The position numbers and the translations under genes are program-made. The notes beneath the pieces are model-generated. The model saw nothing but the letters and a program-made list of their open reading frames with translations. It was not told the origin of the DNA and made no database searches. Shown one piece after another: positions 3,252 through 25,475 of a stretch of 54,622 bases of DNA. Source of the stretch: Flavobacteriaceae bacterium (GTDB lineage: Bacteria; Bacteroidota; Bacteroidia; Flavobacteriales; Flavobacteriaceae); contig JADGEL010000001.1 of assembly GCA_016744415.1 (NCBI GenBank), positions 1,027,855 through 1,082,476 of the forward strand. The letters run 5' to 3'. Position 1 is the stretch's first letter; every line of letters begins with the position of its first letter.

Positions 3252-3253
3252 TT

Positions 3254-5629: not shown

Positions 5630-5641
5630 TTCTACGATAAT

Positions 5642-6793: not shown

Positions 6794-6798
6794 AATAT

Positions 6799-8661: not shown

Positions 8662-8675
8662 ATCTATCTATAATT

Positions 8676-10538
8676 TTACAAACAAGGTTTTAGAATGAGT
8701 CCATATTTCCTGTTTACTGTTATTTTTTTATTGTTAGAAAATGTTTTTGAGCTTAATAAATCGGTATAGCATTTTTCATTTAAATCTTCAACAGTTAGTT
8801 CTTGTTCAGTAGCACTATTATTGATTACGACAACTATTTTTTCACCTTTATATTCTCTTTCAAAGACAAAAACATTTTTTTCATTATCTGCCAATATTGT
8901 TTTATATGAACCTAATTGTAGGGCTTTATTTTCATTTCTAATATGAATCAATTTTTTGTAGTGCTCAAATAAAGGGGTATTTATTTCTACGCTCTCTGGT
9001 TTGTGTTTAGAGCCATTTGCATTGAAAATTTCATCTTCATATTTAATATCATTCCACAACATTGGTTTTCTACAATCAGGATCATTGCCACCCCACATGC
9101 CAACCTCATCTCCATAATAAATCATAGGAGCACCAACATAGGTCATCTGCATAATTGCAAATAATTTTTGAAGCTCTACATCGCTTTCTTTTGGTTTTTG
9201 AGTTGAGTAATTGGGATTATTTAGCGCAATAGAAGTGTTAAAATACGTTCCCCAATCTCTATAATTTTCAATCCCTCTATTTACAATATGAGAACCAATC
9301 CTGTTAGAGTCGTGGCTGCCAAATAAATTCATAGAAACTGCAGCAACACCTTTAGGGTATAACTCTCTTAACTCTTTTAGTTTTACATCAAACTCTGTTG
9401 GAGATATGCTCGTTACCTTTGGATTAAAAAAGAATTCTGATGCTGTAAATGCAAAATTATAATTCATTTCGCCATCAAATTCATCACCTTGCATATAGGG
9501 TTTTACCTTGTTCGGGGTGTCGACAATCTCGGCAGTCATGTACGCTTCAGGATTTATAGCTCTTACGTGTTTTCTCCATTGTTTCCAAAACGGATGCCCA
9601 ATACAAAATGCCACATCTAAGCGCCAACCATCTATCCCAAATTCAGATCCTTTCCCTTTCGGATTCATCCATCTTTTGGTTGCATTAAAAATATATTGTT
9701 TGGGGCCTGCAACAATTCCTAAACTATCTTCCTTAAATTCTGGAAGTGATTTTACTCCGAACCATCCTTCATAATCAAAAGAAGTTCCTGTTTTTGGATC
9801 CTCCCAAGAGTTGATGATAAACCAATCTTTGTAGGGTGATTCTTGTTGGTTCTTTAATACGTCTTTAAATGCAAAGCTATTGACTCCTAAATGATTAAAG
9901 ACTCCGTCAAAAATAATTCTCATTCCTCTAGAGTGTACATCGTTTATAAGCTCTAGTATCAATTCATCGGCACTTGTCCACACCCAGCTATTTGGGTCTA
10001 ATGGATTTTCTGAAGCAATTAATTTTCGATCTCCTTCAGGATCTGGTCCAAAATTTGGATCGATATGATGATAGCTCTCTCCGTCGTATTTATGTAGCGA
10101 AGGAGATTGAAAAATTGGGTTTAAATAAATAGCGGTAATTCCTAAATCTTGCAAGTAATCTAACTCATTAATAATTCCTTGGATATCTCCCCCATACCTT
10201 CTTCTTAAAATGTGTTTCCACATTTCTGAATCACCATTTTTTTGTTCGTATTTTTGTAGTTGATACCAATCGCTTTCCCAAGGATGCACTTCCCAGAATT
10301 CTGGCAACTCCTGAGGGTCTGCACCTTTAAGTTCTTCTAAGGTTGGATTGTTACTTGGGTCTCCATCCCTAAATCGCTCTGGAAATATTTGATACCACAC
10401 CACTGTTTTTGCCCATTGAGGCACAAACTCTTCCTCACTTGTTTCGTCATTAATATGTTTAGTGCAAGCAAGAAAAAAAGTTGAGAGCACAAACCCCAAT
10501 AAGACAACTTTTATATTTAATACTAAATAATGCTTCAT
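8676..10538 (-). CDS. GH13 alpha-amylase/neopullulanase family lipoprotein
   Basis: A 620-residue protein with a signal ending in FFLAC (Cys25), so a probable lipoprotein. Catalytic motifs: FDGVFNH (Asp211), GIDGWRLD (nucleophile Asp308), TAEIVD (Glu337) and GSHDSNR (Asp410, SHD instead of NHD). It shares the RRRYGGDIQGIINELDYL-type motif with the SusA-like neighbour, but the two differ elsewhere and are not a recent duplication. A C-terminal beta domain covers about 545-620. It is the first enzyme gene after the phosphorylase and is separated from it by a 90-nt gap containing a hairpin. Neopullulanase or cyclomaltodextrinase activity is likely; branch-point preference is not determinable. 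Confidence 0.88.
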   Translation of the reverse strand: MKHYLVLNIKVVLLGFVLSTFFLACTKHINDETSEEEFVPQWAKTVVWYQIFPERFRDGDPSNNPTLEELKGADPQELPEFWEVHPWESDWYQLQKYEQKNGDSEMWKHILRRRYGGDIQGIINELDYLQDLGITAIYLNPIFQSPSLHKYDGESYHHIDPNFGPDPEGDRKLIASENPLDPNSWVWTSADELILELINDVHSRGMRIIFDGVFNHLGVNSFAFKDVLKNQQESPYKDWFIINSWEDPKTGTSFDYEGWFGVKSLPEFKEDSLGIVAGPKQYIFNATKRWMNPKGKGSEFGIDGWRLDVAFCIGHPFWKQWRKHVRAINPEAYMTAEIVDTPNKVKPYMQGDEFDGEMNYNFAFTASEFFFNPKVTSISPTEFDVKLKELRELYPKGVAAVSMNLFGSHDSNRIGSHIVNRGIENYRDWGTYFNTSIALNNPNYSTQKPKESDVELQKLFAIMQMTYVGAPMIYYGDEVGMWGGNDPDCRKPMLWNDIKYEDEIFNANGSKHKPESVEINTPLFEHYKKLIHIRNENKALQLGSYKTILADNEKNVFVFEREYKGEKIVVVINNSATEQELTVEDLNEKCYTDLLSSKTFSNNKKITVNRKYGLILKPCL

Positions 10539-10573
10539 GCTAATACTATATTTTTATTAAAAGCAACTGGAAG

Positions 10574-10610
10574 TATGGAACTCTTATAATTAAGAGTTTA
10601 GATTTCCATA
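10574..10610. promoter_or_regulatory. Two-part inverted repeat between GH65 and GH13 genes
   Basis: In the 90-nt gap inside the operon, AACTCTTA (10579-10586) pairs with TAAGAGTT (10591-10598) around a TAAT loop. Outside it, TATGGAA (10574-10580) pairs with TTCCATA (10604-10610). No U-run follows on the transcribed strand, so it is not a standard terminator. It may be an RNA processing or stability hairpin that separates expression of the cytoplasmic genes (transporter, pgmB, GH65) from the exported enzymes. Confidence 0.5.
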
Positions 10611-10628
10611 AATAGTTTTGAGCTAATT

Positions 10629-12932
10629 TTAAATTGTTACAAGGTCATTTTTTGAAATGATTTTTTCTACTCCATCAACAATAATTTGTACTGGAATTTC
10701 AGATTCGTTTGTAAAAACACATTCTGTTTGATTTTTATAAACCTTTAAAGTACTTCCTCTAAAATTGATTTTAAAAGAATATGATTTCCATTCTTTTGGT
10801 ATTTGTGGATGAAAAGAAAGTTGTCCATCAAAATTTCGCATTCCTCCAAAACCTTGCACAATTGCAGACCATGTACCTGCCATACTTGTAATATGTAAGC
10901 CCTCATGTACCTCATGATTGTAATCGTCTAAATCTAAACGCGATGTGCGTAAATATTGCTCATAAGCTTTCGGCATCCTATCAAAAGAGGCGGCTAAAAT
11001 TGAATGAATACAAGGCGATAATGAAGATTCATGCACTGTAATTGGTTCGTAAAAGTCGAAATGTTTTTCGATGGTTTCTTTTTCAAAATTATTTTCAAAA
11101 AGATACATCCCTTGTAAAACATCTGCTTGTTTTATATAGCAAGAACGCAAGATTCTATCCCATGACCATTTTTGATTGATGGGTCTATCTCTTTTTGAAA
11201 GTTCTGAAACTGGAATAATTTCTTTGTCTAAAAACCCGTCTTGCTGTAAATAGATATTGTGCTTTTCACTGATTGGAAAATACATGAGATTAGCTACTTT
11301 TAACCATGCTTCTATTTCTAAATCAGATAATTTTGTAGTCTCTATTATTCGGTCATAATCAGCCTTAAATTCATTTTGAAGTTTTTCTAAATTTTCAGCT
11401 GTATACTCAATACACCACTTTGCTAAATAGTTGGTATAAAAATTATTATTGACATTGTTTTCATATTCATTAGGCCCTGTAACTCCCAAAATCATATATT
11501 GATTTTTGGCGTTAGAGTAAGTTGCTCTTTGATGCCAAAAACGAGCTACAGCAATCATTACTTCCATACCAAATTCTGGAATATAATTGTAATCGCCAGT
11601 GTAATTTACATAATTGTAAATGGCATAAATCATGGCGCCATTTCTATGAATTTCTTCAAAGGTGATTTCCCATTCATTATGGCATTCTTCACCATTCATA
11701 GTCACCATAGGGTATAGAGCTGCTCCGGAATTAAATCCTAATTTCTCAGCATTTTCAATTGCTTTATCTAATTGATTGTAACGATATAATAATAAATTAC
11801 GCGCTACTTCTTTGTCTTTGGTGCTCATGTAAAAGGGGATGCAATAAGCTTCAGTATCCCAATAGGTACTGCCTCCGTATTTCTCTCCTGTGAACCCTTT
11901 TGGACCAATATTTAAACGAGAATCTTCACCCGAATAGGTTTGATTTAATTGAAAAATATTAAAGCGAATAGCTTGTTGCGCTTTTACATCTCCATCAATA
12001 ATAATGTCTGATGTTTCCCAAATTTTTGCCCAGGCTTCTTTTTGCTTTTTAAGGAGTCCGTCAAAACCAATAGTTGCTGCGTTAGATAAATTATTTTGTG
12101 CACAAGAAATTAATTCATCTTCTGTGTGGTTCATAGATTGGCAATAACCACCAAATTTAATAAGCGATAAAGTCTCACCTATAGCTATTAATTTTTTGCT
12201 GGTATAATCAATTCGTTTTTCGCCCTCTATTACTGTATGTGGAAGTTTAATAGTTTGCCCATTAAGTTCATAACTAAAACGCATTCCTGTAGCAACATAG
12301 AAGTTTGTTTTTAATGTTTTAGATAAAATAACGGCATCATTATCGCGATCTTCAATATCTAAAACTTCCCAAAAAAGTTCATCGTAGTTAGTATCTTCAT
12401 TTTTGATACCGGCATCTATATAAGGTGTGAATTCAATTTCTCCAGAAAAGTTTAATGGAGTAACACTATATTTTATAGCTCCAATCTCATTTATATCTAA
12501 AGAAAGAAACCTAACAGATTCAACTGCGACTTGGTTTCCATTTTTCAAGGTAGTCTTAAAAGATCTTTTTAAGAAACCGTCTTTCATATTCAATTCACGA
12601 TAAAAGTCTTGAGCCAAACAGGAGTTTAAATCCAATTGTTCATCGTTAATTTTTACATCAATTCCAATCCAATTTGGCGCATTCAATACTTTTGCAAAAT
12701 ATTCTGGATAGCCATTTTTCCACCATCCAACACGTGTTTTATCGGGATAATAAATTCCACCTATATAACTTCCTTGAAAAGTTTTGCCCGAGTAGTGTTC
12801 TTCAAAATTGGCACGTTGGCCCATGGCACCATTGCCAATGCTAAAAATACTTTCAGACGCGGTGGCTTGGGTTTTATCAAAACCTTCTTCAATTATCGAC
12901 CACTCATTAGGTATAATATAATTTAAGTTCAT
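10629..12932 (-). CDS. GH65 maltose phosphorylase
   Basis: A 767-residue cytoplasmic protein with no signal peptide. The family cleaves maltose with phosphate, giving glucose and beta-glucose-1-phosphate. An N-terminal beta-sandwich (1-290) is followed by the alpha/alpha barrel. Visible signatures are GGSTYWDTEAYC (353-364), GVTGPNEYENN with the probable general acid Glu489, and HESSLSP (634-640), which lines the phosphate site in this family. The next gene, 1 nt away, encodes beta-phosphoglucomutase, which uses exactly this product, and a sugar transporter follows. That context strongly favours maltose over trehalose or kojibiose, although GH65 specificity is not fully readable from sequence. 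Confidence 0.92.
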   Translation of the reverse strand: MNLNYIIPNEWSIIEEGFDKTQATASESIFSIGNGAMGQRANFEEHYSGKTFQGSYIGGIYYPDKTRVGWWKNGYPEYFAKVLNAPNWIGIDVKINDEQLDLNSCLAQDFYRELNMKDGFLKRSFKTTLKNGNQVAVESVRFLSLDINEIGAIKYSVTPLNFSGEIEFTPYIDAGIKNEDTNYDELFWEVLDIEDRDNDAVILSKTLKTNFYVATGMRFSYELNGQTIKLPHTVIEGEKRIDYTSKKLIAIGETLSLIKFGGYCQSMNHTEDELISCAQNNLSNAATIGFDGLLKKQKEAWAKIWETSDIIIDGDVKAQQAIRFNIFQLNQTYSGEDSRLNIGPKGFTGEKYGGSTYWDTEAYCIPFYMSTKDKEVARNLLLYRYNQLDKAIENAEKLGFNSGAALYPMVTMNGEECHNEWEITFEEIHRNGAMIYAIYNYVNYTGDYNYIPEFGMEVMIAVARFWHQRATYSNAKNQYMILGVTGPNEYENNVNNNFYTNYLAKWCIEYTAENLEKLQNEFKADYDRIIETTKLSDLEIEAWLKVANLMYFPISEKHNIYLQQDGFLDKEIIPVSELSKRDRPINQKWSWDRILRSCYIKQADVLQGMYLFENNFEKETIEKHFDFYEPITVHESSLSPCIHSILAASFDRMPKAYEQYLRTSRLDLDDYNHEVHEGLHITSMAGTWSAIVQGFGGMRNFDGQLSFHPQIPKEWKSYSFKINFRGSTLKVYKNQTECVFTNESEIPVQIIVDGVEKIISKNDLVTI

Positions 12933-12933
12933 T

Positions 12934-13590
12934 TTAGTTTTTTATCAATTCTTTTATCATGTCAATCGTTAGCTCTGCAGTTGAATCAAGATTAATATCT
13001 GCTGCATTTAATGCTTTTTTATCTCCAATCCCAATACTTGTCATGCCCGCAATATTTGCAGCTTCAACTCCTGCAATGGCATCTTCAATAACAATACAAT
13101 CTTTTGGATTGGCATTTAGTTTTTGTGCTGCAATTAAAAATACTTCAGGGTCTGGTTTTGCTTTTGACACATCATTACCATCAACAATGGCATCAAATAA
13201 ATCGATTAAGTCTAATTGTGTTAAAATTAATCGTGCATTTTTACTTGCTGATCCTAATGAAAAAGGAATGTTATTTTTTTTAAGGTATAACAATACTTTG
13301 TACATTCCTTCTAAGATTTCCTCTTGCCCCATTTTAGTGATGTATTGCAAATAATGCTCATTTTTATCTTGCATTATTTTTGTTTTTTCACCTTCTGGGA
13401 GACTTACATTTCCAATCTCTAATAAGATTTCTAAAGAGCGAACTCTACTCACTCCTTTAAGTAATTCGTTTTGAGTTTCGGTAAAATCAAACCCTAAATC
13501 GTTTGCCAATTTTTTCCACGCTTTGTAATGGTATTTTGCAGTATCTACAATAACACCGTCCAAATCAAATATGAAAGCTTTTTTACTCAT
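12934..13590 (-). CDS. pgmB: Beta-phosphoglucomutase (HAD superfamily)
   Basis: A 218-residue cytoplasmic HAD enzyme that converts beta-glucose-1-phosphate to glucose-6-phosphate. The N-terminus carries FDLDGVIVDT, with nucleophile Asp9 and acid/base Asp11. Later motifs are GSASKNA (phosphate-binding Ser/Lys) and KAKPDPEVF, then VIEDAIAGVEAA (Mg-binding acidic pair). The length suits the family. The gene lies 3 nt after the transporter and 1 nt before the phosphorylase, so the three genes form a cytoplasmic maltose module: uptake, phosphorolysis, mutase. Confidence 0.93.
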   Translation of the reverse strand: MSKKAFIFDLDGVIVDTAKYHYKAWKKLANDLGFDFTETQNELLKGVSRVRSLEILLEIGNVSLPEGEKTKIMQDKNEHYLQYITKMGQEEILEGMYKVLLYLKKNNIPFSLGSASKNARLILTQLDLIDLFDAIVDGNDVSKAKPDPEVFLIAAQKLNANPKDCIVIEDAIAGVEAANIAGMTSIGIGDKKALNAADINLDSTAELTIDMIKELIKN

Positions 13591-13593
13591 TTA

Positions 13594-14934
13594 TTAATTT
13601 ATTGCGTCATCAACATCTTTAACTCTTACTACTAACATTGCTGCAATTAATAATGAAACACCACTAATTACTAAAGCAAAAATTGGATTACCACCGTAAA
13701 TATATTTTACAATTGGCCCACCAATAATGGCGTTAATTATTTGAGGAATAACAATAAAGAAATTAAAAATCCCCATATAAACTCCCATTTTTTTTGCTGG
13801 AATAGAACCTGCCAAAATTGCATATGGCATTGCTAAGATACTAGCCCAAGCTATACCAATTCCAAACATGGATAAGAATAACCAGTTTTCATTTGGCATA
13901 AAATAAATTGAAACAAGACCTAAACCACCAGCTATTAAACCAACTGAATATGTCATTTTTCGGCCTAGTTTTTTAGCTATTGCTGGCAAAAAGAATGCAT
14001 ATACTGCTGAAACAGCGTTGTACGCTCCAAATAAGATTCCAACCCAATCACCTGCATTTTGATACGCAGTTCCGTGATCGTCTAATGACAAACCATACAC
14101 ATGATGAGCAATTGCAGGAGTTGCGAATACCCACATACCAAACAAGCCAAACCACGAGAAAAATTGAACTGAACTCAATTGCTTCATAGTTAATGGCATT
14201 TTCTTAAAATCAGAAAAAATGTTTAATAAGCTAGATTCTTCCTCAACTTGGTCATCTTCACCTTCTTTAGTTGCAAATTGAGCTAATTCTTCAGGAGAAT
14301 ATTCTTTGGTTGTAAATACAGTAATTAGGATACTAATAACTAAAACTGCAGCTCCTATAATGAATGAAATCAATAAATTTAAAGGCACCTCACCTTCTAC
14401 TGTATTATTTGATATTCCAAACCAATTAGTTAACGTATAAGGCAACCAAGAACCAATTACTGCTCCAATACCAATTAAAACAGTTTGAATACTAAATCCA
14501 AGAGTTCTTTGATCTGAAGGTAATAAATCTGCGACTAATGCTCTAAATGGTTCCATTGCAACATTAAATGAAGCATCCATTATCATAAGCATACCTGCAC
14601 CAACCCACAAAGCAGGCATGAATGCTGTAAACAAATCTGCATTGGGCATTAAAATCAATCCCATTGAGGCTAACAAAGCACCCGTTAAAAAATATGGACG
14701 CCTTCTGCCTAATCTAGTCCAAGTTTTATCGCTATAATATCCAATAATGGGCTGTACAATTAAACCTGTTAATGGAGCTACAATCCAAAACCAGGATAGC
14801 TCATGTACATCAGCTCCAAAAATTTGTAGTATTCTACTGGCATTGGCATTTTGTAATGCAAAACCCATTTGAATTCCCAAGAAACCGAAACTCATGTTCC
14901 AAATATCCCAGAAACTAAGTTTCTGTTTTTTCAT
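13594..14934 (-). CDS. MFS sugar (maltose) transporter, inner membrane
   Basis: A 446-residue polytopic membrane protein with about 12 hydrophobic segments and a longer acidic central loop (near 213-240) between the two halves. The loop after helix 2 reads SDKTWTRLGRRRPY, the arginine-rich MFS signature seen in sucrose/maltose (SLC45-like) carriers and related GPH-type symporters. It is the first gene of the minus-strand operon, directly before pgmB and the phosphorylase, so uptake of maltose or short maltodextrins is the likely function. The preceding 139 nt carry a -7-like box and a hairpin. Confidence 0.87.
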   Translation of the reverse strand: MKKQKLSFWDIWNMSFGFLGIQMGFALQNANASRILQIFGADVHELSWFWIVAPLTGLIVQPIIGYYSDKTWTRLGRRRPYFLTGALLASMGLILMPNADLFTAFMPALWVGAGMLMIMDASFNVAMEPFRALVADLLPSDQRTLGFSIQTVLIGIGAVIGSWLPYTLTNWFGISNNTVEGEVPLNLLISFIIGAAVLVISILITVFTTKEYSPEELAQFATKEGEDDQVEEESSLLNIFSDFKKMPLTMKQLSSVQFFSWFGLFGMWVFATPAIAHHVYGLSLDDHGTAYQNAGDWVGILFGAYNAVSAVYAFFLPAIAKKLGRKMTYSVGLIAGGLGLVSIYFMPNENWLFLSMFGIGIAWASILAMPYAILAGSIPAKKMGVYMGIFNFFIVIPQIINAIIGGPIVKYIYGGNPIFALVISGVSLLIAAMLVVRVKDVDDAIN

Positions 14935-14956
14935 CGTAAAAATGTATTATAAATTT

Positions 14957-14992
14957 ATTGAATAAATGAAGGCCGAATGCCTATTATTCAAT
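14957..14992 (-). promoter_or_regulatory. Stem-loop in the leader of the MFS/GH65 operon
   Basis: ATTGAATAA (14957-14965) is a perfect inverted copy of TTATTCAAT (14984-14992). Inside it AGGC (14970-14973) pairs with GCCT (14979-14982) around CGAAT. It lies 22-58 nt before the transporter start, inside the predicted 5' UTR. It could be an mRNA hairpin or a protein-binding palindrome. No U-run follows, so it is not a simple terminator. Confidence 0.6.
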
Positions 14993-15001
14993 GGTGCGAA
15001 G

Positions 15002-15020
15002 TCGAAATTTAGTAAATTGT
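15002..15020. repeat. Leader motif shared with the susC leader, copy 1
   Basis: TCGAAATTTAGTAAATTGT on the plus strand matches 16337-16356 (TCGAAATTTAGTACAATTGT) except for one inserted C. The flanks (GTG..AA before) are also similar. Both copies lie between a predicted promoter and the first gene of the two divergent glucan operons, but in opposite orientation relative to transcription. That favours a DNA site over an RNA element. Confidence 0.6.
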
Positions 15021-15039
15021 GAAATTACTTTTGATGGCT

Positions 15040-15047
15040 CAAAGATA
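15040..15047 (-). promoter_or_regulatory. Predicted -7 element for the MFS/GH65/GH13 operon
   Basis: The minus strand reads TATCTTTG, a full match to TAnnTTTG. No clear TTG lies 19-20 nt upstream, so the -33 part is weak and an activator may be needed. Transcription would begin near 15033, leaving a leader of about 100 nt that contains the stem-loop and the shared motif. Read-through from the lacI-type gene is an alternative. Confidence 0.45.
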
Positions 15048-15073
15048 GAATTAATTTTTTAAATTAAAATTTT

Positions 15074-16093
15074 TTACAAACTTTTTGTAGATTTTCTGAT
15101 TTTTAAATTTGTAGATAATACCACTTTTTGAGGTTTAAATTCTTCTTTGCTTTCTATGCGATTTATGAGTAATTCTGCAGTTTTTTTTCCCATGCTATAT
15201 CCATGTTGAACAACTGTTGTTAAAGGCGGTAGCGCTAATCTAGAAAGAGGGCCGTCTGTAAATCCAATAATGCTAATATCTTCAGGAATTTTAAAGCCTC
15301 TTTCTCGTGCAACATTCATGGCGCTTACAGCATACACCTCGTTGACTGCAAAAATTCCGTCAGGAGTTTCATTGTCAAATAAATCTTCAATTTGTTCTTT
15401 AATATTCTCTCTTTCATCTACCTCAACAATCAAGTCAATATCTACTTCTTGTCCATGATTTTGGATGGCTTTTACATAACCTCTTCTTCTCAAGGTGCCA
15501 ACAGTAATGTGTTTTGGAGTGGTAATTAAAGCAATTTTTTTACAACCAATTTCTATTAAATGATTGGTGGCATTGATAGATCCACTAACGTCATCAATGA
15601 TTACTTTATCGCATTCAAATTTATCATTAACACGGTCAAACATTACTATCGGAAAATCATCTTCAATCAAATCATTAAAATGCGAATAATCATTCTTTTT
15701 TTGAGTTTCTTTAGAAATTGAAACAATTAACCCATCAACACTTCCGCTTGTAAACATTTCAATGTTGAGTACTTCTTTTTCATAAGATTCATTTGACAAA
15801 CATATCATTACGTTGTAACCTCTTTGGTTAGTAACTTCTTCAATTCCCTGGATCACAGTTGAAAAAAAATGATGAACAATATTTGGCAATACAACTCCTA
15901 TCGTTTTTGTTTGCTGATTTTGTAATCGGACAGCCAAACTGTTTGGCTTGTAATGGTGTTTTTTTGCGTATTCCTGAATCTTTTGTTTTAAATCTATACT
16001 AATTTCATGACTGTTTTTCAAAGATTTAGAGACTGTTGATATTGATACATCAAATTCTTTAGCTATATTTTTTAAGGTAATTTTTGGCTTCAT
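15074..16093 (-). CDS. LacI-family transcriptional regulator of the glucan locus
   Basis: A 339-residue regulator. Residues 5-60 are the LacI helix-turn-helix and hinge (ITLKNIAKEFDVSISTVSKS, then YKPNSLAVRL). The rest is a periplasmic-binding-protein-like sensor domain starting TIGVVLPNIVHHFF. The gene stands between the two glucan operons, so a maltose- or oligosaccharide-responsive switch is likely. Its own promoter (16120-16149) has good spacing. Twin sites containing ACGTTTTCGT upstream of susC look like LacI-family operators. Their place upstream of the -33 box fits activation better than simple blocking, which is inference. Effector and symbol are not assignable. Confidence 0.92.
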   Translation of the reverse strand: MKPKITLKNIAKEFDVSISTVSKSLKNSHEISIDLKQKIQEYAKKHHYKPNSLAVRLQNQQTKTIGVVLPNIVHHFFSTVIQGIEEVTNQRGYNVMICLSNESYEKEVLNIEMFTSGSVDGLIVSISKETQKKNDYSHFNDLIEDDFPIVMFDRVNDKFECDKVIIDDVSGSINATNHLIEIGCKKIALITTPKHITVGTLRRRGYVKAIQNHGQEVDIDLIVEVDERENIKEQIEDLFDNETPDGIFAVNEVYAVSAMNVARERGFKIPEDISIIGFTDGPLSRLALPPLTTVVQHGYSMGKKTAELLINRIESKEEFKPQKVVLSTNLKIRKSTKSL

Positions 16094-16393: not shown

Positions 16394-19351
16394 ATGAAAA
16401 ACTTAAGAATATTTATAGTTCTTTTAGTGTTACCTCTAATCACTTTTGCACAACAAACCATCAGTGGTACGGTATCAGAAAAATCAACAGGTTCCTCTTT
16501 GCCAGGAGTTGATGTTATTATTAAAGGAACTACACGCGGAACGTCTACAGATTTTGACGGTAACTATAGTCTAGATGATGTTAATGAAGGCGATGTCCTC
16601 TCATTTTCTTTCATGGGCTATCAAACTATCGAAATTGTTGTTGCAGGTAGTAACACGATTAATGTAGAATTAGAAGAGGGCCAAGAAGCATTGGACGAAG
16701 TTGTGATTATCGGTTATGGTACCACATCGGTTAAAGATGCAACGGGTGCAGTAGTTGCTGTAAAGGCTGACGATATTAACACAGGGGCAACAATATCTGC
16801 AGACCAATTATTAGTTGGTAAAATTGCAGGTGTGCAAGTAACAACAAACGGTGGTGCTCCAGGTGCTGGTAGTACTATTAGAATTAGAGGAGGCTCATCT
16901 TTATTAGCCTCAAACGATCCATTAATTGTTATTGATGGAATTCCTGTTGAAAGTGGTGGTGTAGCAGGAATGAGGAATCCTTTAAACTTGGTAAACCCAA
17001 ATGATATTGATTCATATACCGTATTAAAAGATGCCTCTGCAACTGCAATTTATGGTTCTAGAGCATCGAATGGTGTTATCATTATTACAACTAAAAAAGG
17101 AAAAGAGGGTAAGCCACTAGAACTAAGCTTTACCTCTAACTTTTCTTATGGACAATTGATTGATCAAGTTGATGTTTTATCTGCAGATCAATTTAGAGAT
17201 TTTATCAATACTTACGGATTACCAACTGATATTGCTCTAATGGGTACAGCAAGTACCAATTGGCAAGATGAAATTTACCAAGACGCCTTGACTTTCGACA
17301 ATAATATTAGTGCTGTAGGTAGTACAGATTTTTTAACCTACCGTGCTTCTATTGGATATTCTGATTTTGATGGAATTCTAAAAACAGACAATGTAAAAAG
17401 AACAACCATTTCGGTTGGTTTAGGTACCAAAGTATTAGATGATCATTTAAAGATTGATTTAAATATAAAATCTGCATTTTTAAAAAATCACTTTGCTGAT
17501 GGTGGTGCAATTGGTAATGCAATTGCATTTGACCCAACTCAAGAATTAACAATGAACATTCAAAATTTTGGAGGTTATTTTGAATGGTTGCAAGCAGGAA
17601 CTGCAAACCCAATTGCTGTTGGAGCACCTAGAAACCCAGTAGCTTTGCTTGAACAAAGAAATAATGAATCTGATGTAACTCGTTTTGTTGGAAATGTTCA
17701 ATTTGACTATTCTTTCCATTTCTTGCCAGAATTAAGAGCAAATCTTAATTTAGGTATAGATACTTCTAGTATCTCAGGTGATAACAAAATATTTGCTTCT
17801 GCAACAACTGTTCAAGCAGATGGATCAAATCCAGGAAACATTTTTAAGTATAATGAAGACAAAGAAAATAAATTGTTAGATTTTTATTTGAACTATGTAA
17901 AAGATGTTGAATCAATCAATAGCTCATTTGATGTAATGGCGGGTTATTCTTACCAAAACTTTGAAACTACAGGTTACAATATTTCAGATATCCAAGATTC
18001 AAGTTTAGAGTTTAGAGATGATTATGCAACATTATTAAACTTACAATCGTTCTTTGGTCGATTAGATTATAAATTGGCTGATAAGTATTTGTTAACTTTG
18101 ACTTATAGAACAGATGGATCTTCAAGATTTAGAGGAGCCAATAAATGGGGGCAATTTCCTTCGGCTGCATTTGGTTGGAAAATTATTGACGAAGACTTTA
18201 TGCAAGACTCAAAAACGTTATCTAATTTAAAATTGAGATTAGGTTGGGGTATTACAGGTCAACAAGAAATACCTGGACAGTTAAATCCTGCATTAGCAAC
18301 TTATTTGTTAGGAACAAATACTGCACAGTATCAATTTGGAAATGCGTATTACAATACTTTTAGAGCTGAACCTTTTAATACTACTCTAAAATGGGAAGAA
18401 ACTACTACTTATAATGCTGGTGTTGATTTCGGGTTCTTTAACCACAGATTGTACGGTAGCGTAGATGGATACTTTAGAGAGACTAAAGATTTGTTAAATG
18501 AGATTCCTTTCCCAGCAGGCTCATCACTTTCTAATGAAGATATTGCAAATGTAGGTAATCTGGAGAATAAAGGAGTTGAAGTTACTTTAACTGGAACAGC
18601 TATTCAAACCGATGATATGAATCTTGATTTAGGTGTTAACTTTACTTATAACCAATCTGAGATTACAAAATTAACTACAAACGATGATCCTGATTATCCT
18701 GGAATTCCAACTGGAGATATATCAGGGGGAGTAGGTAATCGAGTTCAGATTCACTCTGTTGGGTATGCCCCGTCATCATTCTTTGTATATCAACAAGTGT
18801 ATGATGATAATGGAAATCCATTAGAAGACGTTTATGTTGATAGAGATGGTGATGGTGAGATTACATTAAATGATAAATACCAATATAAAAATCCGGCACC
18901 AGATGTAACTATTGGGTTTAATACCGACTTTAGTTATAAAGATTTTGATTTTACCATGTCTTGGAGAGGTGTAATTGGAAACTATGTATATAACAATGTA
19001 GATTCTAATTTAGGATTTCATCAACAATTGATAAACACTTCATTTCCAAATGTAATTTCAAATGGGGTGCACAATGTTTTAGAAACAGGTTTTGTTGATG
19101 GTGGTACAGAAAGATATTTATCTGATTACTATGTACAAGATGCTTCGTTTATTAAATTAGACAATATTGGAATTGGATATAATTTCCGCGAGATTTTTAA
19201 AGATGCAAATTTAAGATTGAACGCTTCAGTTCAAAATGCTTTAATAATTACTGATTATACTGGGCTAGATCCAGAGGTATTCAATGGAATTGATAACAAT
19301 TTATATCCTAGACCAAGAACCTATACATTTGGTTTAAACTTAACTTTTTAA
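16394..19351 (+). CDS. susC: SusC-family TonB-dependent outer-membrane transporter
   Basis: A 985-residue protein that imports oligosaccharides through the outer membrane, powered by TonB. The signal peptide is 1-19 (TFA before QQ). Residues 22-95 are the carboxypeptidase-regulatory-like extension typical of SusC proteins. DEVVIIGYG (101-109) is the TonB-box-like segment. The plug follows, with GKIAGVQV and RIRGGSS (163-169), VIDGIP and KDASATAIYGSRASNG. The barrel runs to the end, and the last residues TYTFGLNLTF end in the Phe typical of outer-membrane barrels. SusD begins 10 nt downstream. Starch or maltodextrin specificity is inferred from neighbours. Confidence 0.95.
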   Translation: MKNLRIFIVLLVLPLITFAQQTISGTVSEKSTGSSLPGVDVIIKGTTRGTSTDFDGNYSLDDVNEGDVLSFSFMGYQTIEIVVAGSNTINVELEEGQEALDEVVIIGYGTTSVKDATGAVVAVKADDINTGATISADQLLVGKIAGVQVTTNGGAPGAGSTIRIRGGSSLLASNDPLIVIDGIPVESGGVAGMRNPLNLVNPNDIDSYTVLKDASATAIYGSRASNGVIIITTKKGKEGKPLELSFTSNFSYGQLIDQVDVLSADQFRDFINTYGLPTDIALMGTASTNWQDEIYQDALTFDNNISAVGSTDFLTYRASIGYSDFDGILKTDNVKRTTISVGLGTKVLDDHLKIDLNIKSAFLKNHFADGGAIGNAIAFDPTQELTMNIQNFGGYFEWLQAGTANPIAVGAPRNPVALLEQRNNESDVTRFVGNVQFDYSFHFLPELRANLNLGIDTSSISGDNKIFASATTVQADGSNPGNIFKYNEDKENKLLDFYLNYVKDVESINSSFDVMAGYSYQNFETTGYNISDIQDSSLEFRDDYATLLNLQSFFGRLDYKLADKYLLTLTYRTDGSSRFRGANKWGQFPSAAFGWKIIDEDFMQDSKTLSNLKLRLGWGITGQQEIPGQLNPALATYLLGTNTAQYQFGNAYYNTFRAEPFNTTLKWEETTTYNAGVDFGFFNHRLYGSVDGYFRETKDLLNEIPFPAGSSLSNEDIANVGNLENKGVEVTLTGTAIQTDDMNLDLGVNFTYNQSEITKLTTNDDPDYPGIPTGDISGGVGNRVQIHSVGYAPSSFFVYQQVYDDNGNPLEDVYVDRDGDGEITLNDKYQYKNPAPDVTIGFNTDFSYKDFDFTMSWRGVIGNYVYNNVDSNLGFHQQLINTSFPNVISNGVHNVLETGFVDGGTERYLSDYYVQDASFIKLDNIGIGYNFREIFKDANLRLNASVQNALIITDYTGLDPEVFNGIDNNLYPRPRTYTFGLNLTF

Positions 19352-19361
19352 TTAAATAAAG

Positions 19362-21248
19362 ATGAAAAAATATTCTTTTAAAATAATATTCGTAAGTGTA
19401 TTCATCGCTTTACTAACACTAACATCTTGTTTAGATGATTTGGATACAGTTCCAAATGATCCTGATGTTGTATTAGCTGATGAAATATTTAACGACCCTG
19501 CTGCATACAAACAAGTATTGGCAAAATTATATGCTGGACTTGCTATTAGTGGTCAAGATGGACCTGCTGGCTCACCTGATATTCAAGGTATCGATGAAGG
19601 CTTTAGTCAATATTTAAGACAATATTGGTTGGCACAAGAAGTAACAACCGACGAGGCTGTTATTGGATGGGCAGATGGTAGTTTACCTGATTATCATGCT
19701 CAGAATTGGAATTCAGGAAATGAATTTGTTAGAGCATTATATGATCGTATTATGTATCAAGTTACTGCATGTAATGCCTTTTTAAGACAAACAACACCTT
19801 CTTTATTAGATGACCGTGGAGTAACTGGACAACTAAGAACGGATGTAGAATTGTATAGAGAAGAGGCTCGTTTTTTAAGAGCATTGAGTTATGCGCATGC
19901 TTTAGACCTTTTTGGTAACGTTCCTTTTGTAACTGAAGCAGATGAAGTAGGATACTTCTTTCCAGAGCAAATTACTAGAACTGATTTGTTTTCTTTTGTA
20001 GAATCTGAACTATTGGCTATCGAAAATAATTTAGTTGCTCCTCGAGCAAATGAGTATGCTAGAGCTGATCAAGCTGCTGCTTGGACATTGTTAGCTAAAA
20101 TATACTTGAATGCTGAAGTTTATACTGGTCAAAGTAAATATACTGAATGTGTTACGTATTCAACTAAAGTTATCAATGCTGGATATTCATTAGAAGATGA
20201 TTATCAAAACTTATTTTTAGCTGATAATCACACATCAAGTGGTGTTATTTTTCCAATCGCTTTTGATGGGTTACGTACACAATCTTATGGAGGTACAACG
20301 TTCTTAATTCATGCTGCTGTTGGAGGCTCAATGGTTCCTGCAGATTTTGGCATCAACGGAGGTTGGGGTGGTAATAGAACTACCAGTGCTTTAGTTAACT
20401 TATTTGATATAGATCTTACTGACTTGCAAGCTGGTTTAGGACCGGTTTCTACTTGGGGGCTTGTTGGTGATGCAACAACCAATGGTTGGGGCGGACCTGA
20501 TATGCCATTACATCAAACAGGAATTGCAAATGTTTTTGAAACCTATGCAACAATGGGAGATGGTGAATTTAAATTTAGAGAAAACAATGACTGGGGTAAT
20601 AACTATGGCGATAATGACTTTGATGGAACTATTGAACCAGGAGGGTCTAATATTCCAATTACTGCTGGTGCATATAAAATTACTGTAGATTTTAATACAT
20701 TAACGTATACTGTACAAACAATAGGTGACTCTAGAGCTATTTTCCATACTGATGGACAAAATAAAGAAATTGCAGAAATTCCAACTTTTACTGAAGGATA
20801 TGCAGTTGCTAAATTTAAAAATGTTGATCAAAATGGAGCTCCTGGATCAGACACATCAGGTAACTTTACAGATACCGATTTTCCATTATTCAGAATTGCA
20901 GATATATACTTAATGTATGCTGAAGCAACTCTTAGAGGTGGCGGAGGTAGCGAAGGTACCGCTGTAGGTTACTTTAATGAATTAAGAGCGAGAGCTGGAA
21001 ACCCGGTTTCTGTTTCTTCTCTTAATTTAGATATGATACTTGATGAAAGAGCAAGAGAATTGTATTGGGAAGGGCACCGTAGAACTGATTTAGTTAGATA
21101 CGGAAGATTTACTGATGGAAGTTATGTTTGGCCTTGGAAAGGAAATGTACCAGATGGTGTGTCAACATCTGCGCATTTAGATTTGTATCCAATTCCTGCT
21201 ACAGATATCAATGCAAATCCAAACCTAACTCAAAATCAAGGTTACTAA
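19362..21248 (+). CDS. susD: SusD-family glycan-binding lipoprotein with inserted SusE-type binding module
   Basis: A 628-residue surface lipoprotein (signal ending LTSC, Cys23) expected to cap the SusC barrel. SusD hallmarks are EARFLRALSYAHALDLFGNVPFV-like text near 168-190 and DERARELYWEGHRRTDLVRYG (561-581). Between LFDIDLTD (about 348) and DSRAIFHTDGQ (about 456), which I would expect to be close together in an ordinary SusD, about 90 extra residues appear (364-455). They match the starch-binding repeats of the next gene: start WGLVGDATTNGWG, then GEFKFRENNDWGNNYGD, then ITAGAYKITVDFNTLTYTV. The frame is intact and both halves of SusD are present, so this is a real domain insertion, not a frameshift. 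The result is a SusD with an extra glucan-binding site. Confidence 0.93.
   Translation: MKKYSFKIIFVSVFIALLTLTSCLDDLDTVPNDPDVVLADEIFNDPAAYKQVLAKLYAGLAISGQDGPAGSPDIQGIDEGFSQYLRQYWLAQEVTTDEAVIGWADGSLPDYHAQNWNSGNEFVRALYDRIMYQVTACNAFLRQTTPSLLDDRGVTGQLRTDVELYREEARFLRALSYAHALDLFGNVPFVTEADEVGYFFPEQITRTDLFSFVESELLAIENNLVAPRANEYARADQAAAWTLLAKIYLNAEVYTGQSKYTECVTYSTKVINAGYSLEDDYQNLFLADNHTSSGVIFPIAFDGLRTQSYGGTTFLIHAAVGGSMVPADFGINGGWGGNRTTSALVNLFDIDLTDLQAGLGPVSTWGLVGDATTNGWGGPDMPLHQTGIANVFETYATMGDGEFKFRENNDWGNNYGDNDFDGTIEPGGSNIPITAGAYKITVDFNTLTYTVQTIGDSRAIFHTDGQNKEIAEIPTFTEGYAVAKFKNVDQNGAPGSDTSGNFTDTDFPLFRIADIYLMYAEATLRGGGGSEGTAVGYFNELRARAGNPVSVSSLNLDMILDERARELYWEGHRRTDLVRYGRFTDGSYVWPWKGNVPDGVSTSAHLDLYPIPATDINANPNLTQNQGY
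20451..20726 (+). repeat. SusE-type binding module inserted in SusD
   Basis: This segment encodes SusD residues 364-455. It shares the pattern WGxVGxAxxxWGxPD, GExKFRxNNDWxxNYGD, DGxxxxGGxNIxxTAG and the closing FNTLTYT with all three modules of the SusE-like gene, notably with module 1. This points to domain shuffling within the operon. Confidence 0.85.
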
Positions 21249-21266: not shown

Positions 21267-22580
21267 ATGAAAAATATATTAAATAAATTCATACTGTTAC
21301 TCGTAGCTCCTTTACTGTTTGTTGCTTGTAACAATGATGATCCAGTATTAACAGTACTTAATCCAAATGCAACGGTAGATGTTAGTTTATCCACATCTAG
21401 TGTTGTTTTAGATCCTAATATGGCTGACATGGAGGCTTTAGTGGTTTCTTGGCTACAACCAGATTTTGGTTATAGCGAAGCGGCTATTTATACTATTAAG
21501 TTCGATAATGCAGGTGGTGATTTTAGCAATGCACAATCAGTGTCTGCAGGTATGGATTTCGAAAAATCTTTAACAGTTAGTGAGTTAAACGGAATTCTTA
21601 TAAACCTCGGTTTTGAACAAGATGTTCCTGCTGATGTAGAAATTAGAGTTGTTGCTGGTTTGGGAGATTACAATTCAATTGTTTCAGAATCTTCAATTTT
21701 AAACGCAACTGCTTATGAAGATTTGTTAGACCAATCTACTCCTTGGGGTGTTGTTGGATCTGCTGCAAATGATTGGGGAGCTACTCCAGATTTGCCATTT
21801 TACACAACTGGTGCTGATGGTGTTTTAGTAGCCTATGTTACTTTGATTGATGGTGAAATTAAGTTTAGAAAAGACAATGATTGGGCATTAAATTATGGAG
21901 ATACTGGTTTAGATGGAAGCTTAGATGAAGGAGGAGATAATATTCCTGTTACTGCTGGTTCTTATGAAATCATTATGAACCTTAATACCTTAACATATAC
22001 TATGGCTCCTTTATCTTGGGGAATCGTTGGTTCTGCTTATAATGATTGGGGTGCTACTCCAGATGCTATGTTAACATACGATCCGTATTCTGATCAGTGG
22101 AGAGGAATTTATACCTTATTAGATGGCGAAATGAAAATTAGAAAAAATAATGATTGGGGTACAAATTATGGAGATACTGGAGCAGATGGTATATTAGATC
22201 AAGATGGTGATAATATTGTTGTTACTGCTGGTATTTATATTGTAACTGTAAACTTCAATGATTTCTCTTATACGTTAGAACCTATTAGTTATGTATGGGG
22301 TGTTGTAGGTTCGGCCTATAATGATTGGGGTGCAACTCCAGATGCTCAATTTACACGTGACTGGAGTATTAGTGATGAAGTATGGATACTAAATGGAGTT
22401 ACACTTATTGATGGTGAATGGAAAATTAGAGCTAACAATGATTGGGGTGTTAATTATGGTGATACAGGTGGAGATGGAGTTTTAGAAATGGGCGGTGATA
22501 ATATGACTGCAACTGCTGGAACTTATACGATACGATTAAACTTTGCTGATCCAGACAACCCAACGTATACAATTGAATAG
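21267..22580 (+). CDS. SusE-like starch-binding outer-membrane lipoprotein with three tandem modules
   Basis: A 437-residue lipoprotein (signal ending LFVAC, Cys21). Residues 30-150 form an Ig-like N-terminal domain of the SusE type. Three repeats of about 90 residues follow: 160-248, 251-339 and 344-437. Each begins WGxVGSAxNDWGATPD, continues DGExKxRxNNDWxxNYGD and has an acidic loop GDTGxDGxLxxxGDN before a final beta segment. SusE/SusF-type proteins bind starch at the surface without cutting it. The gene follows susD by 18 nt. A hairpin with a T-run lies 22 nt downstream. The acidic loops resemble calcium-binding loops, which is inference. Confidence 0.9.
   Translation: MKNILNKFILLLVAPLLFVACNNDDPVLTVLNPNATVDVSLSTSSVVLDPNMADMEALVVSWLQPDFGYSEAAIYTIKFDNAGGDFSNAQSVSAGMDFEKSLTVSELNGILINLGFEQDVPADVEIRVVAGLGDYNSIVSESSILNATAYEDLLDQSTPWGVVGSAANDWGATPDLPFYTTGADGVLVAYVTLIDGEIKFRKDNDWALNYGDTGLDGSLDEGGDNIPVTAGSYEIIMNLNTLTYTMAPLSWGIVGSAYNDWGATPDAMLTYDPYSDQWRGIYTLLDGEMKIRKNNDWGTNYGDTGADGILDQDGDNIVVTAGIYIVTVNFNDFSYTLEPISYVWGVVGSAYNDWGATPDAQFTRDWSISDEVWILNGVTLIDGEWKIRANNDWGVNYGDTGGDGVLEMGGDNMTATAGTYTIRLNFADPDNPTYTIE
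21744..22580 (+). repeat. Three tandem starch-binding modules in the SusE-like gene
   Basis: Module 1 is at about 21744-22010, module 2 at 22017-22283 and module 3 at 22296-22577, followed by the stop. Modules 2 and 3 are nearly identical in DNA over their first 40 or so bases (for example TATAATGATTGGGGTGC in both), suggesting fairly recent duplication or gene conversion. Confidence 0.85.
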
Positions 22581-22652: not shown

Positions 22653-25475
22653 ATGAAAAAAACACTACTTTTTTTATTCTTATTTGTAACAACACTTACA
22701 ACATTTTCTCAGGTAACTTGGCTAGCTGGTACACCTGAAGAGGCACAATCTGCAACCATTGTTTTTGATGCTACTGGAACGCCTTTAGAAAATACTACGG
22801 GTACTTTTTATGCACACACTGGTGTTACCATTAATGACACAAATGATTGGCAAAATGTTATTGGAGGTTGGGGAGATAATGGAGTGAACCCTTCATTCAC
22901 CTTAATTTCTGGAAATATTTATCACTTAGTACTTTCTCCAAGTATTACCAGTTTTTATAGTAATCCTGCAGGAACAATAACTGCAGTTAACATTGTTGTA
23001 AGAAGTACTGATGCAGGAACACAAACAACAGATTTAGTTTTGCCAGTTGGTGCATTTCAAGCAACTTTAATAGATCCAACAATAGAAACTACAATTATTA
23101 ATTCTGGCGGCAGTTTAAATATTGTGGCAAGTAATACCAATGGATCTGCAGATTATAATTTACTAGCAAATGGAGTTAGTATTCATACATCAACTACTTC
23201 TTTTTATATTTTTACACATTCAAATATAACAGCAAATCAAAACTATGAATTGCAAGTAACTCAAGGTGGAGCTACCATTTCAAAATACTTTTATGTAATT
23301 GTTAATCCTGGAGTTATTTCTGAAGCTATACCTGCAGGAATGGAAAACGGAATCAATTATGATGCTACTGATGATACAGTAGCAACCTTAGTATTAGATG
23401 CTCCTTTAAAAGACTTTGTTTATGTAGCTGGCAGTTTTAATAGCTACACTCCAACTGCTTTAGATATTATGAAAACTGATCCAGGTACAGGAAAATTTTG
23501 GCTAACATTAACTGGTTTAACACCTGGCCAAATAGAGAATTATCAATATTGGGTGTATGCAACAAACCCTGTTGCAGATTCACCAACAGTTGTTAAAACT
23601 GCTGATCCTTTTTCAACATTAGTTTTATCTCCTTTTGATGATCCTTATATTCCATCAACAACGTATCCAAATATACCTACCTATCCAGCAGGGCAAGAAC
23701 GTGAGGTTACTGTTTTACAAACTGGTCAAACTGATTATAATTGGCAAGTCACCAATTTTTCAAAACCTAAAAAAGAAGATTTAATCGTTTATGAAGTATT
23801 GATTCGCGATTTTGACGCAGATCGTAACTTTCAAGATTTAATTGATAAAATCGATTATTTCAAAAACTTAAATGTCAATGCTATTGAATTGATGCCTATC
23901 ATGGAATTTGAAGGCAATGAAAGCTGGGGTTATAATACGTCATTCCATATGGCATTAGACAAATTTTATGGTACCGAAGATAAATTTAAAGAATTGGTAG
24001 ATACTTTTCATCAGAACGGAATAGCAGTCATTTTAGACGTTGCTTTAAATCATGCTTTCGGAAGAAATCCAATAAATAGAATGTGGATGAATGACCCTGA
24101 AGGTGATGGTTGGGGAGAACCGAGTTCTGAAAACCCATATATGAATCAAGTTGCAACACACAGTTATAGTGTGGGATCAGATTTTAATCACCAACAATCT
24201 AGAACTCAATATTATGTTGAGCGTGTGATTAAACACTGGATCGAAGATTTTAAAATTGATGGATTTCGTTGGGATTTAACTAAAGGGTTTACTCAAAATT
24301 GTACAGGTAATGAGGGTTGTACAAATTCTGAACAAGCTGATCGGGTAGCTATTTTAAAACAATATGCAGATTATTCATGGAGTTTAGATACAGATCATTA
24401 TGTAATATTTGAGCATTTAGGAGGAGATACAGAAGAAAAACAATGGGCAGATTACAGATTGGGCGAAGGTAAAGGAATTATGATGTGGGGGAAAATGACC
24501 GATGCATATAACGAACTTACTATGGGCCAAAATGGTGGTACAGATATTTCTAGAATGGGGCATACAGCTCATGGGTTTACAGGAAAGCGTGTAATGGGTT
24601 ACCCTGAAAGTCATGATGAAGAACGATTAATGTATAAAAACCTACAATACGGAAATAGTACAAATGCGGCTCATGATGTAAAAGATTTGAGTATTTCTTT
24701 ATCGCGTATGTCTGCTTTAGGTGCTGTTTCATTAACAATACCTGGTCCAAAAATGATTTGGCATTTTGCAGATTTAGGGATGGAGAATTCTATTTTTACG
24801 TGTAATAATGGTTCTGTTAATAATCCTGATTGTAAGTTAGATACCAAGCCTCAACCGCAATGGATAAATAACTGGTTAAGTGATCCTGAAAGGAGTCAAA
24901 TTTATAATGACTGGGCACGAATCAATTTTATTAAAACAAATGAAGATGTTTTTGAAGGGAATTATTCTATCACAACAAATACGTTAACTCCAAAAATTTA
25001 TGTTTGGGATAATGCTATACCAGTTACCGAATTAAAAAATGTGGTAATACTTGCTAACTTTAATGTGACTACTCAAAATATTACACCAGACTTTCCATAT
25101 ACAGGTATCTGGTATGATTTGATGGATGCAAGTGGAAGCACTTCTATAAATGTTACAAATACAACGACTCCAATAAACATTGCAGCAGGACAATTTAAAA
25201 TATACGGTAACCATGTTGCGCAAGGATTAAGCGTTGATGATATTGATATTTCTGATGCTATTAGATTGTATCCAAACCCAACAAATGGGACTTTTTCTTT
25301 GAATAAAGCAGCTACAAAAGTTGAGTTGTATGACATGACAGGAAGACAAATTAAAACATTTTCTGACACAGTATTTAATACTCCTTTAGATATTTCAAGC
25401 TTATCTAACGGAATCTATTTTGTAAAAATAACAACCTCAGAAGGCACAGGAGCAAAACGATTAATTAAAAATTAA
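22653..25475 (+). CDS. Exported multidomain GH13 alpha-amylase with T9SS type-A sorting domain
   Basis: A 940-residue protein. I start at the ATG at 22653, because it opens directly onto the signal MKKTLLFLFLF; an upstream in-frame TTG-like start at 22620 would lie inside the hairpin. Signal 1-19; N-terminal beta domain 21-130 resembling CBM26-type starch binding; Ig-like stretch 140-215; CBM48/E-set-like region 240-330; GH13 barrel about 370-760 with LDVALNH (Asp462), KIDGFRWD (nucleophile Asp541), IFEHLGG (acid/base Glu587) and ESHDEE (Asp655). Residues 865-940 form a T9SS C-terminal domain: LYPNPTNGTF, DMTGRQI, LSNGIYFVKI, ending KRLIKN. It should be displayed on or released from the cell surface, where it cuts polymeric starch. 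Confidence 0.92.
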   Translation: MKKTLLFLFLFVTTLTTFSQVTWLAGTPEEAQSATIVFDATGTPLENTTGTFYAHTGVTINDTNDWQNVIGGWGDNGVNPSFTLISGNIYHLVLSPSITSFYSNPAGTITAVNIVVRSTDAGTQTTDLVLPVGAFQATLIDPTIETTIINSGGSLNIVASNTNGSADYNLLANGVSIHTSTTSFYIFTHSNITANQNYELQVTQGGATISKYFYVIVNPGVISEAIPAGMENGINYDATDDTVATLVLDAPLKDFVYVAGSFNSYTPTALDIMKTDPGTGKFWLTLTGLTPGQIENYQYWVYATNPVADSPTVVKTADPFSTLVLSPFDDPYIPSTTYPNIPTYPAGQEREVTVLQTGQTDYNWQVTNFSKPKKEDLIVYEVLIRDFDADRNFQDLIDKIDYFKNLNVNAIELMPIMEFEGNESWGYNTSFHMALDKFYGTEDKFKELVDTFHQNGIAVILDVALNHAFGRNPINRMWMNDPEGDGWGEPSSENPYMNQVATHSYSVGSDFNHQQSRTQYYVERVIKHWIEDFKIDGFRWDLTKGFTQNCTGNEGCTNSEQADRVAILKQYADYSWSLDTDHYVIFEHLGGDTEEKQWADYRLGEGKGIMMWGKMTDAYNELTMGQNGGTDISRMGHTAHGFTGKRVMGYPESHDEERLMYKNLQYGNSTNAAHDVKDLSISLSRMSALGAVSLTIPGPKMIWHFADLGMENSIFTCNNGSVNNPDCKLDTKPQPQWINNWLSDPERSQIYNDWARINFIKTNEDVFEGNYSITTNTLTPKIYVWDNAIPVTELKNVVILANFNVTTQNITPDFPYTGIWYDLMDASGSTSINVTNTTTPINIAAGQFKIYGNHVAQGLSVDDIDISDAIRLYPNPTNGTFSLNKAATKVELYDMTGRQIKTFSDTVFNTPLDISSLSNGIYFVKITTSEGTGAKRLIKN

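Follow-up and report, generated by a model that had tools for sequence, protein, structure and literature searches.

The window analysed here is a stretch of 54,622 nucleotides from a Flavobacteriaceae genome. Judged by the GH13, GH31, GH65, MFS and LacI genes on board, its locus is an alpha-glucan PUL, laid out as follows (window coordinates):

1590..16093, minus strand: divergent half of the PUL, with three GH13 genes, a GH31, an esterase, a GH65, a HAD-type hydrolase, an MFS transporter and a LacI regulator
16394..19351, plus strand: TonB-dependent transporter of the SusC type that pairs with the SusD (profile matches)
19362..21248, plus strand: SusD-type lipoprotein of the alpha-glucan PUL, 628 residues, with an inserted module; frame intact
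21267..22580, plus strand: SusE lipoprotein with three modules akin to the SusD insert (PF14292)
22653..25475, plus strand: GH13 protein with a T9SS sorting domain

The esterase among the alpha-glucan genes belongs to PF00756 (window 5642-6793). After the GH13 gene comes a protein of 307 residues (window 25497-26420), in which a T9SS tail is all that Pfam recognizes above cut-off; a similar opening (YPQQ..NY) is found at locus L188 (3511-4431, same PUL), and a less similar one at L193 (4727-5653).

The SusD product has an invariant cysteine (Cys23) preceded by a hydrophobic N-terminal stretch, and the SusC gene adjoins its own, as expected of a SusD lipoprotein. Its SusD domain scores 125.7 bits with PF07980 (cut-off 23.1). 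The NF033071 SusD profile reaches 429.2 bits (E 1.8e-128), under its 725-bit cut-off, and the protein is therefore not named as an exact NF033071 SusD.

The module inserted in SusD

A preliminary description of this DNA had singled out residues 364-455 of the SusD as a SusE-type module resembling the three of the next gene, set within an unbroken reading frame between two parts that would be close together in an ordinary SusD. This description is borne out by the alignments and by the predicted fold. The modules concerned are:

20451..20726, plus strand: inserted SusE-type (PF16411-like) module, SusD residues 364-455; its modelled strands span residues 362 to 453
21738..22010, plus strand: SusE module 1, 52% protein identity with the SusD insert
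22014..22286, plus strand: SusE module 2, 46% protein identity with the SusD insert
22296..22574, plus strand: SusE module 3, 47% protein identity with the SusD insert

When searched against the PDB with phmmer, the SusD aligns in two blocks, with Bacteroides vulgatus 3jys over residues 40-351 and 453-628 and with Bt SusD 3ck7 over residues 49-356 and 451-628; in both cases the segment between is unaligned and SusD sequence resumes past it in the same frame. The interval from 345 to 459 comprises 115 residues in the window SusD versus 11-25 in 71 SusDs without the insert. The two-block alignments and the short interval of the uninserted proteins rule out that the segment is ordinary SusD sequence. 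Since the insert matches the SusE modules with E values of 2e-28 to 8e-15 in a search of one genome, the likeness is beyond chance, and across its own 3.13-Mb genome the matches of the segment are confined to the window SusD and the three SusE modules. The Pfam family SusF_SusE (PF16411) covers residues 367-452 of the whole SusD at 23.1 bits (E = 1e-4; cut-off 27.5), and on the segment alone its score equals that cut-off (27.5 bits, E = 4.5e-6). It is exceeded in two insert-bearing homologous SusDs, L166 (38.2 bits) and L018 (48.9 bits). The X25_BaPul family (PF22058) lies slightly over its 27-bit cut-off in the same two proteins (27.4 and 28.8 bits, respectively), and it matches neither the window SusD nor its module alone. 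At E values up to 0.01, PF16411 recognizes 68 of 78 module sequences and PF22058 10 of 78.

AlphaFold2 modelled the whole SusD (58 aligned SusDs) with a pLDDT of 88.4 overall and about 94-97 across the insert, which is predicted to be an eight-stranded domain (strands 362-369, 381-385, 391-398, 401-407, 410-416, 431-433, 436-443 and 448-453); the module modelled alone (78 aligned sequences) has a pLDDT of 96.1. Foldseek ranks 3jys and Bt SusD at the top for the whole model (TM by target 0.83-0.88). For the module, four of the 50 PDB matches listed have probabilities of 0.99-1.00: X25-2 of Ruminococcus bromii Sca5, SusF, a Bacillus pullulanase (the structure of which we take to be X25-bearing) and AmyP-SBD. 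As matched through the predicted model, all four are starch-binding-type domains. SusF (4fe9) comes second (probability 1.00, TMq 0.68, E 0.033); none of the 50 matches listed reaches an E value of 0.001, the best standing at 6.5e-3. Used as a sequence profile against the PDB, the module finds as its best match BT3088, a surface binder of a dextran system (9sji/9sje), and it matches SusF 4fe9 weakly (E 0.19).

Distribution and origin of the insert

The occurrence of the insert was surveyed in named relatives of the locus and in three whole-genome samples that overlap one another (Flavobacteriaceae, class and phylum); at most three candidates were scored per genome, and paralogues can be missed. 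Among the named relatives (56 loci, 55 with a comparable SusD), 11 SusDs carry the insert, one of them (L018) as two tandem modules, a sample that leans towards carriers because one of its six search patterns fell inside the insert. Of 397 Flavobacteriaceae genomes searched, 175 have a matching SusD and 35 of these are carriers, counted where one alignment crossed the insert and the frame measured 611-664 residues; the insert sequence itself was examined in 31 of the 35. The class sample yielded 7 carriers in 80 matching genomes (395 searched), and all four that lie outside the family (G408, G491, G605 and G722) have tandem modules. The phylum sample yielded 14 in 101 (395 searched). Eight of these 14 belong to one family outside the class (f90), in which 12 genomes matched; they carry the insert each time as a single module of another subtype in the same loop as in the window SusD. 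Altogether, 53 distinct SusDs bear a SusE-type insert: 40 with a single W-type module, 8 with a single Y-type module and 5 with a tandem of Y and W (the 'Y' label is our own, from IYVPGGYQ). The preliminary description allowed that the fusion may be rare; this is not supported, since one-fifth of the matching Flavobacteriaceae genomes carry it and other families, including one outside the class, use the same loop. Most SusDs of this kind are without the module.

In the genus of the window, 4 of 14 genomes carry the insert, the window's own included, and one genome of this genus (G001) holds an inserted and an uninserted SusD of the same type. In the SusDs L174:586-2424 and L175:2317-4155, from two genomes (G1051 and G1022, respectively) of one Flavobacteriaceae genus, the same loop holds another kind of insert, about 80 residues long and unmatched in Pfam. 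Assemblies of at most 2.5 Mb, some incomplete, account for 16 of the 35 Flavobacteriaceae carriers.

A tree of the SusD core, built without the insert (114 rows, 44 inserted), implies nine changes in the presence of the insert, at least five of them forced by well-supported branches; losses and gains are indistinguishable in it. Some close relatives are without the module. Trees of the modules themselves (91-92 columns and 217-278 rows, with many unresolved forks) place 38 of the 40 single W-type inserts in one group (SH-aLRT 99), with those of L078 and L101 elsewhere. The group of 38 adjoins module 1 of three-module SusEs, with a support of 66-93 at the joining forks; the closeness of the inserts to module 1 rests on the trees because the best SusE module by BLAST is module 1 for 23 of the 40 and module 2 for 17. 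Among 217 modules, the best BLAST match of every one of the 40 is another SusD insert. The second modules of tandem inserts cluster with the second modules of two-module SusEs, and the second module of L018 adjoins a module of its own SusE. In a reduced tree, constraining all 20 sampled single W-type inserts together gave a likelihood above that of the free search (p-AU 0.73). The AU test did not reject a single clade uniting W-type inserts with the second modules of tandems (p 0.17), so that separate origins of these two are favoured by the trees, not proven. Insert distances show no more than a modest correlation with core distances (Spearman 0.28; 0 of 2,000 permutations as high).

Recent self-duplication from the neighbouring SusE is ruled out by the 46-52% identity between insert and SusE modules, together with the best matches of all 40 inserts lying in other SusDs. 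Separate gains in each Flavobacteriaceae carrier group are not supported either, given the single group of 38 inserts and the outcome of the constrained search. From these trees, the Flavobacteriaceae insert seems to derive from a single ancient transfer out of SusE that was passed on and in places lost, other insertions having occurred elsewhere; SusE-type modules probably entered this loop on more than one occasion. A stronger version, for and against which we hold the case to be evenly balanced, makes the loop beside the sugar site a hot spot for insertions, with SusE-type modules acquired on three or more independent occasions (by Flavobacteriaceae as a single W-type, by other Bacteroidia families as a tandem of Y and W, and by the family outside the class as a single Y-type), so that polymer-grappling lids would have arisen repeatedly.

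Conserved residues and proposed role

The following codons mark the glucan site of the SusD itself and the most conserved positions of its module:

20286..20288, plus strand: Tyr309, aligned with Bt SusD Tyr296 (PDB alignments)
20364..20366, plus strand: Trp335, aligned with Bt SusD Trp320 (PDB alignments)
20487..20489, plus strand: Trp376 (module), present in all 40 single W-type inserts
20571..20579, plus strand: Lys404-Phe405-Arg406 (module), with Lys and Arg present in all 40 single W-type inserts
20592..20594, plus strand: Trp411 (module), present in all 40 single W-type inserts

We take Trp320 and Tyr296 of Bt SusD to be glucan-site residues, and likewise Trp96 and Asn101 (Bt numbering follows a +24 offset, which places W96, R81, Y296 and W320 correctly). 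Across the 53 carriers, W335 is present in all, D78 in 51, R86 in 52 and W103 in 52, one sequence being cut at a contig end there, and position 309 is Tyr, Trp or Phe in every case. These residues are kept about equally in SusDs without the insert. Bt Trp96 aligns with Ile101 of the window SusD and Bt Asn101 with about Gly106, neither of which is a conserved equivalent. The module lies near the site of the lid, since the PDB alignments stop 16 (3jys) or 21 (3ck7) residues past Trp335.

Within the module, Trp376, Lys404, Arg406 and Trp411 are putative sugar-contact residues, and Asn430 is kept in 39 of the 40 single W-type inserts. Lys404 and Asn430 align, within the weak SusF match (4fe9), with a lysine and an asparagine that are presumably its starch contacts K323 and N356. 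The SusE modules conserve the same positions as all five residues, so that their conservation marks kinship as well as use. Of the 8 single Y-type inserts, 6 have Lys404 and 7 have Trp411; of the 5 first modules of tandem inserts, 3 have Trp376, 3 have Lys404 and 3 have Trp411; Arg406 occurs in none of these 13. For 11 near-kin SusDs, the insert has a median dN/dS of 0.25 (43 of 55 pairs computable) and the core one of 0.115 (45 of 55), rough values given a median dS of about 1.3, near saturation. The insert evolves at about twice the rate of the core, and from these ratios the selection on it looks purifying.

On balance, we favour the reading that the module gives the SusC lid a further site for holding alpha-glucan, which would raise polymer concentration and hand trimmed chains to the SusD site. 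Borne on a loop 16-21 residues past the conserved Trp of that site, a module of the SusE/SusF/X25 type would bind alpha-1,4/1,6-glucan and point away from SusC. It would thereby act as a tether that raises the local polymer concentration at the lid, and chains trimmed by a surface amylase would pass to the SusD site, much as CBM58 within the amylase SusG aids work on insoluble starch. No variable-length segment of SusC separates 44 carriers from 47 others, which fits a module turned outwards and not pressing on SusC, as far as lengths can indicate. Eight of the carrier loci were examined more closely, chosen mostly for the absence of any SusE module seen earlier. In five (L186-L190), a SusE is recognized by PF14292 with no detectable W- or Y-type module, and the SusD module is kept; by these profile searches it is the one module seen in the stretch. 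Of the other three, L191 and L193 have modules in SusE and L192 has weak matches.

The module could instead be mainly a docking piece for SusE, the GH13 protein or a second SusD within a surface complex, its sugar binding being secondary or lost. Extra lipoproteins sit on SusC close to SusD in the dextran and levan utilisomes, according to passages of PMC7618045, and the best PDB sequence match of the module profile, BT3088, is a surface binder of the dextran system; the invariant positions, however, are those expected for sugar contact, and the top structural neighbours among the matches listed are of the starch-binding type, which makes docking an unlikely main role. Alternatively, the module might recognize a particular substrate feature, for instance insoluble granules or the branch points formed by alpha-1,6 links, and so alter which glucan is imported. 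Passages of PMC11093988 suggest that PULs with looped SusDs are aimed at more complex glucans, and 52 of the 53 carriers have a segment of 27-28 residues at query 60-86 (the other is cut there) that we infer to be the loop of that paper. A segment of that length is nevertheless present at this place in 53 of 77 SusDs without the insert, and sequence is silent on linkage preference; we consider such a role quite improbable.

A neutral relic, that is, a duplicated piece of SusE tolerated in the loop, would sit well with a loop whose length in uninserted SusDs ranges between 11 and 25 residues and with the missing module of some close relatives. It is hard to reconcile with the low dN/dS, the invariant contact residues, the wide presence and the recurrence in other families, and we regard it as very unlikely. 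That an assembly or gene-model artefact fused pieces of SusD and SusE has practically no probability left, and no observation speaks for it: 40 distinct single W-type SusDs hold the module in one frame, an intact ordinary SusE gene adjoins the SusD, and the same architecture in independent genomes rules it out.

Comparison with known systems

SusD is usually seen as a lid, and polymer capture is assigned largely to other lipoproteins, for example SusE and SusF. A widespread SusD lineage whose lid bears a module of the starch-binding type would, if true, mean that capture and import can share one protein, and the passage of polymer from surface binders to the SusCD channel would become testable by deletion of one module. 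Inserted SusDs would also matter for the interpretation of marine metagenomes, in which SusD sequences serve as substrate markers (as stated in passages of PMC6298971). The suggestion that the fusion may be undescribed stands within the open-access literature found (passages, titles and abstract openings) and no wider: these titles and abstract openings gave no description of a SusE module inside a SusD, and nor did the passages of PMC11093988, PMC10316084, PMC7618045, PMC11345257, PMC6298971, PMC11267923 and PMC5219744. The architecture may already have been catalogued by automatic means in domain databases.

Compared with Bt SusD (3ck7-3ckc) and B. vulgatus 3jys, the window protein has the SusD fold before and after the insert and equivalents of D73, R81, Y296 and W320, whereas these structures are without the module of about 92 residues, and equivalents of Bt Trp96 and Asn101 are unconserved. 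SusE and SusF (PF14292 and PF16411 modules, 4fe9) have the same kind of module, and the insert groups with SusE module 1; there, however, modules stand in tandem on a separate lipoprotein, and here one lies within SusD. Among the structural matches listed for the module, the X25 domains of R. bromii Sca5 and the Bacillus pullulanase rank first and third. X25 domains occur in amylosome and pullulanase proteins; we know of none in a SusD.

The nearest precedent, by analogy, is CBM58 inserted in SusG, which we take to be of another module family than the SusD insert. In North Sea Flavobacteriia, alpha-glucan SusDs of a looped and an open form belong to the same PUL type, and the passages of PMC11093988 describe a loop of about 17 residues and no inserted module. 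CBM58, according to passages of PMC11267923, sits in domain B of the amylase SusG, likewise a starch-binding module inside the body of another surface Sus protein, and its loss raised activity on soluble substrate and lowered it on insoluble substrate. The host of CBM58 is an enzyme, whereas the host of the module in the window is the lid of SusC.
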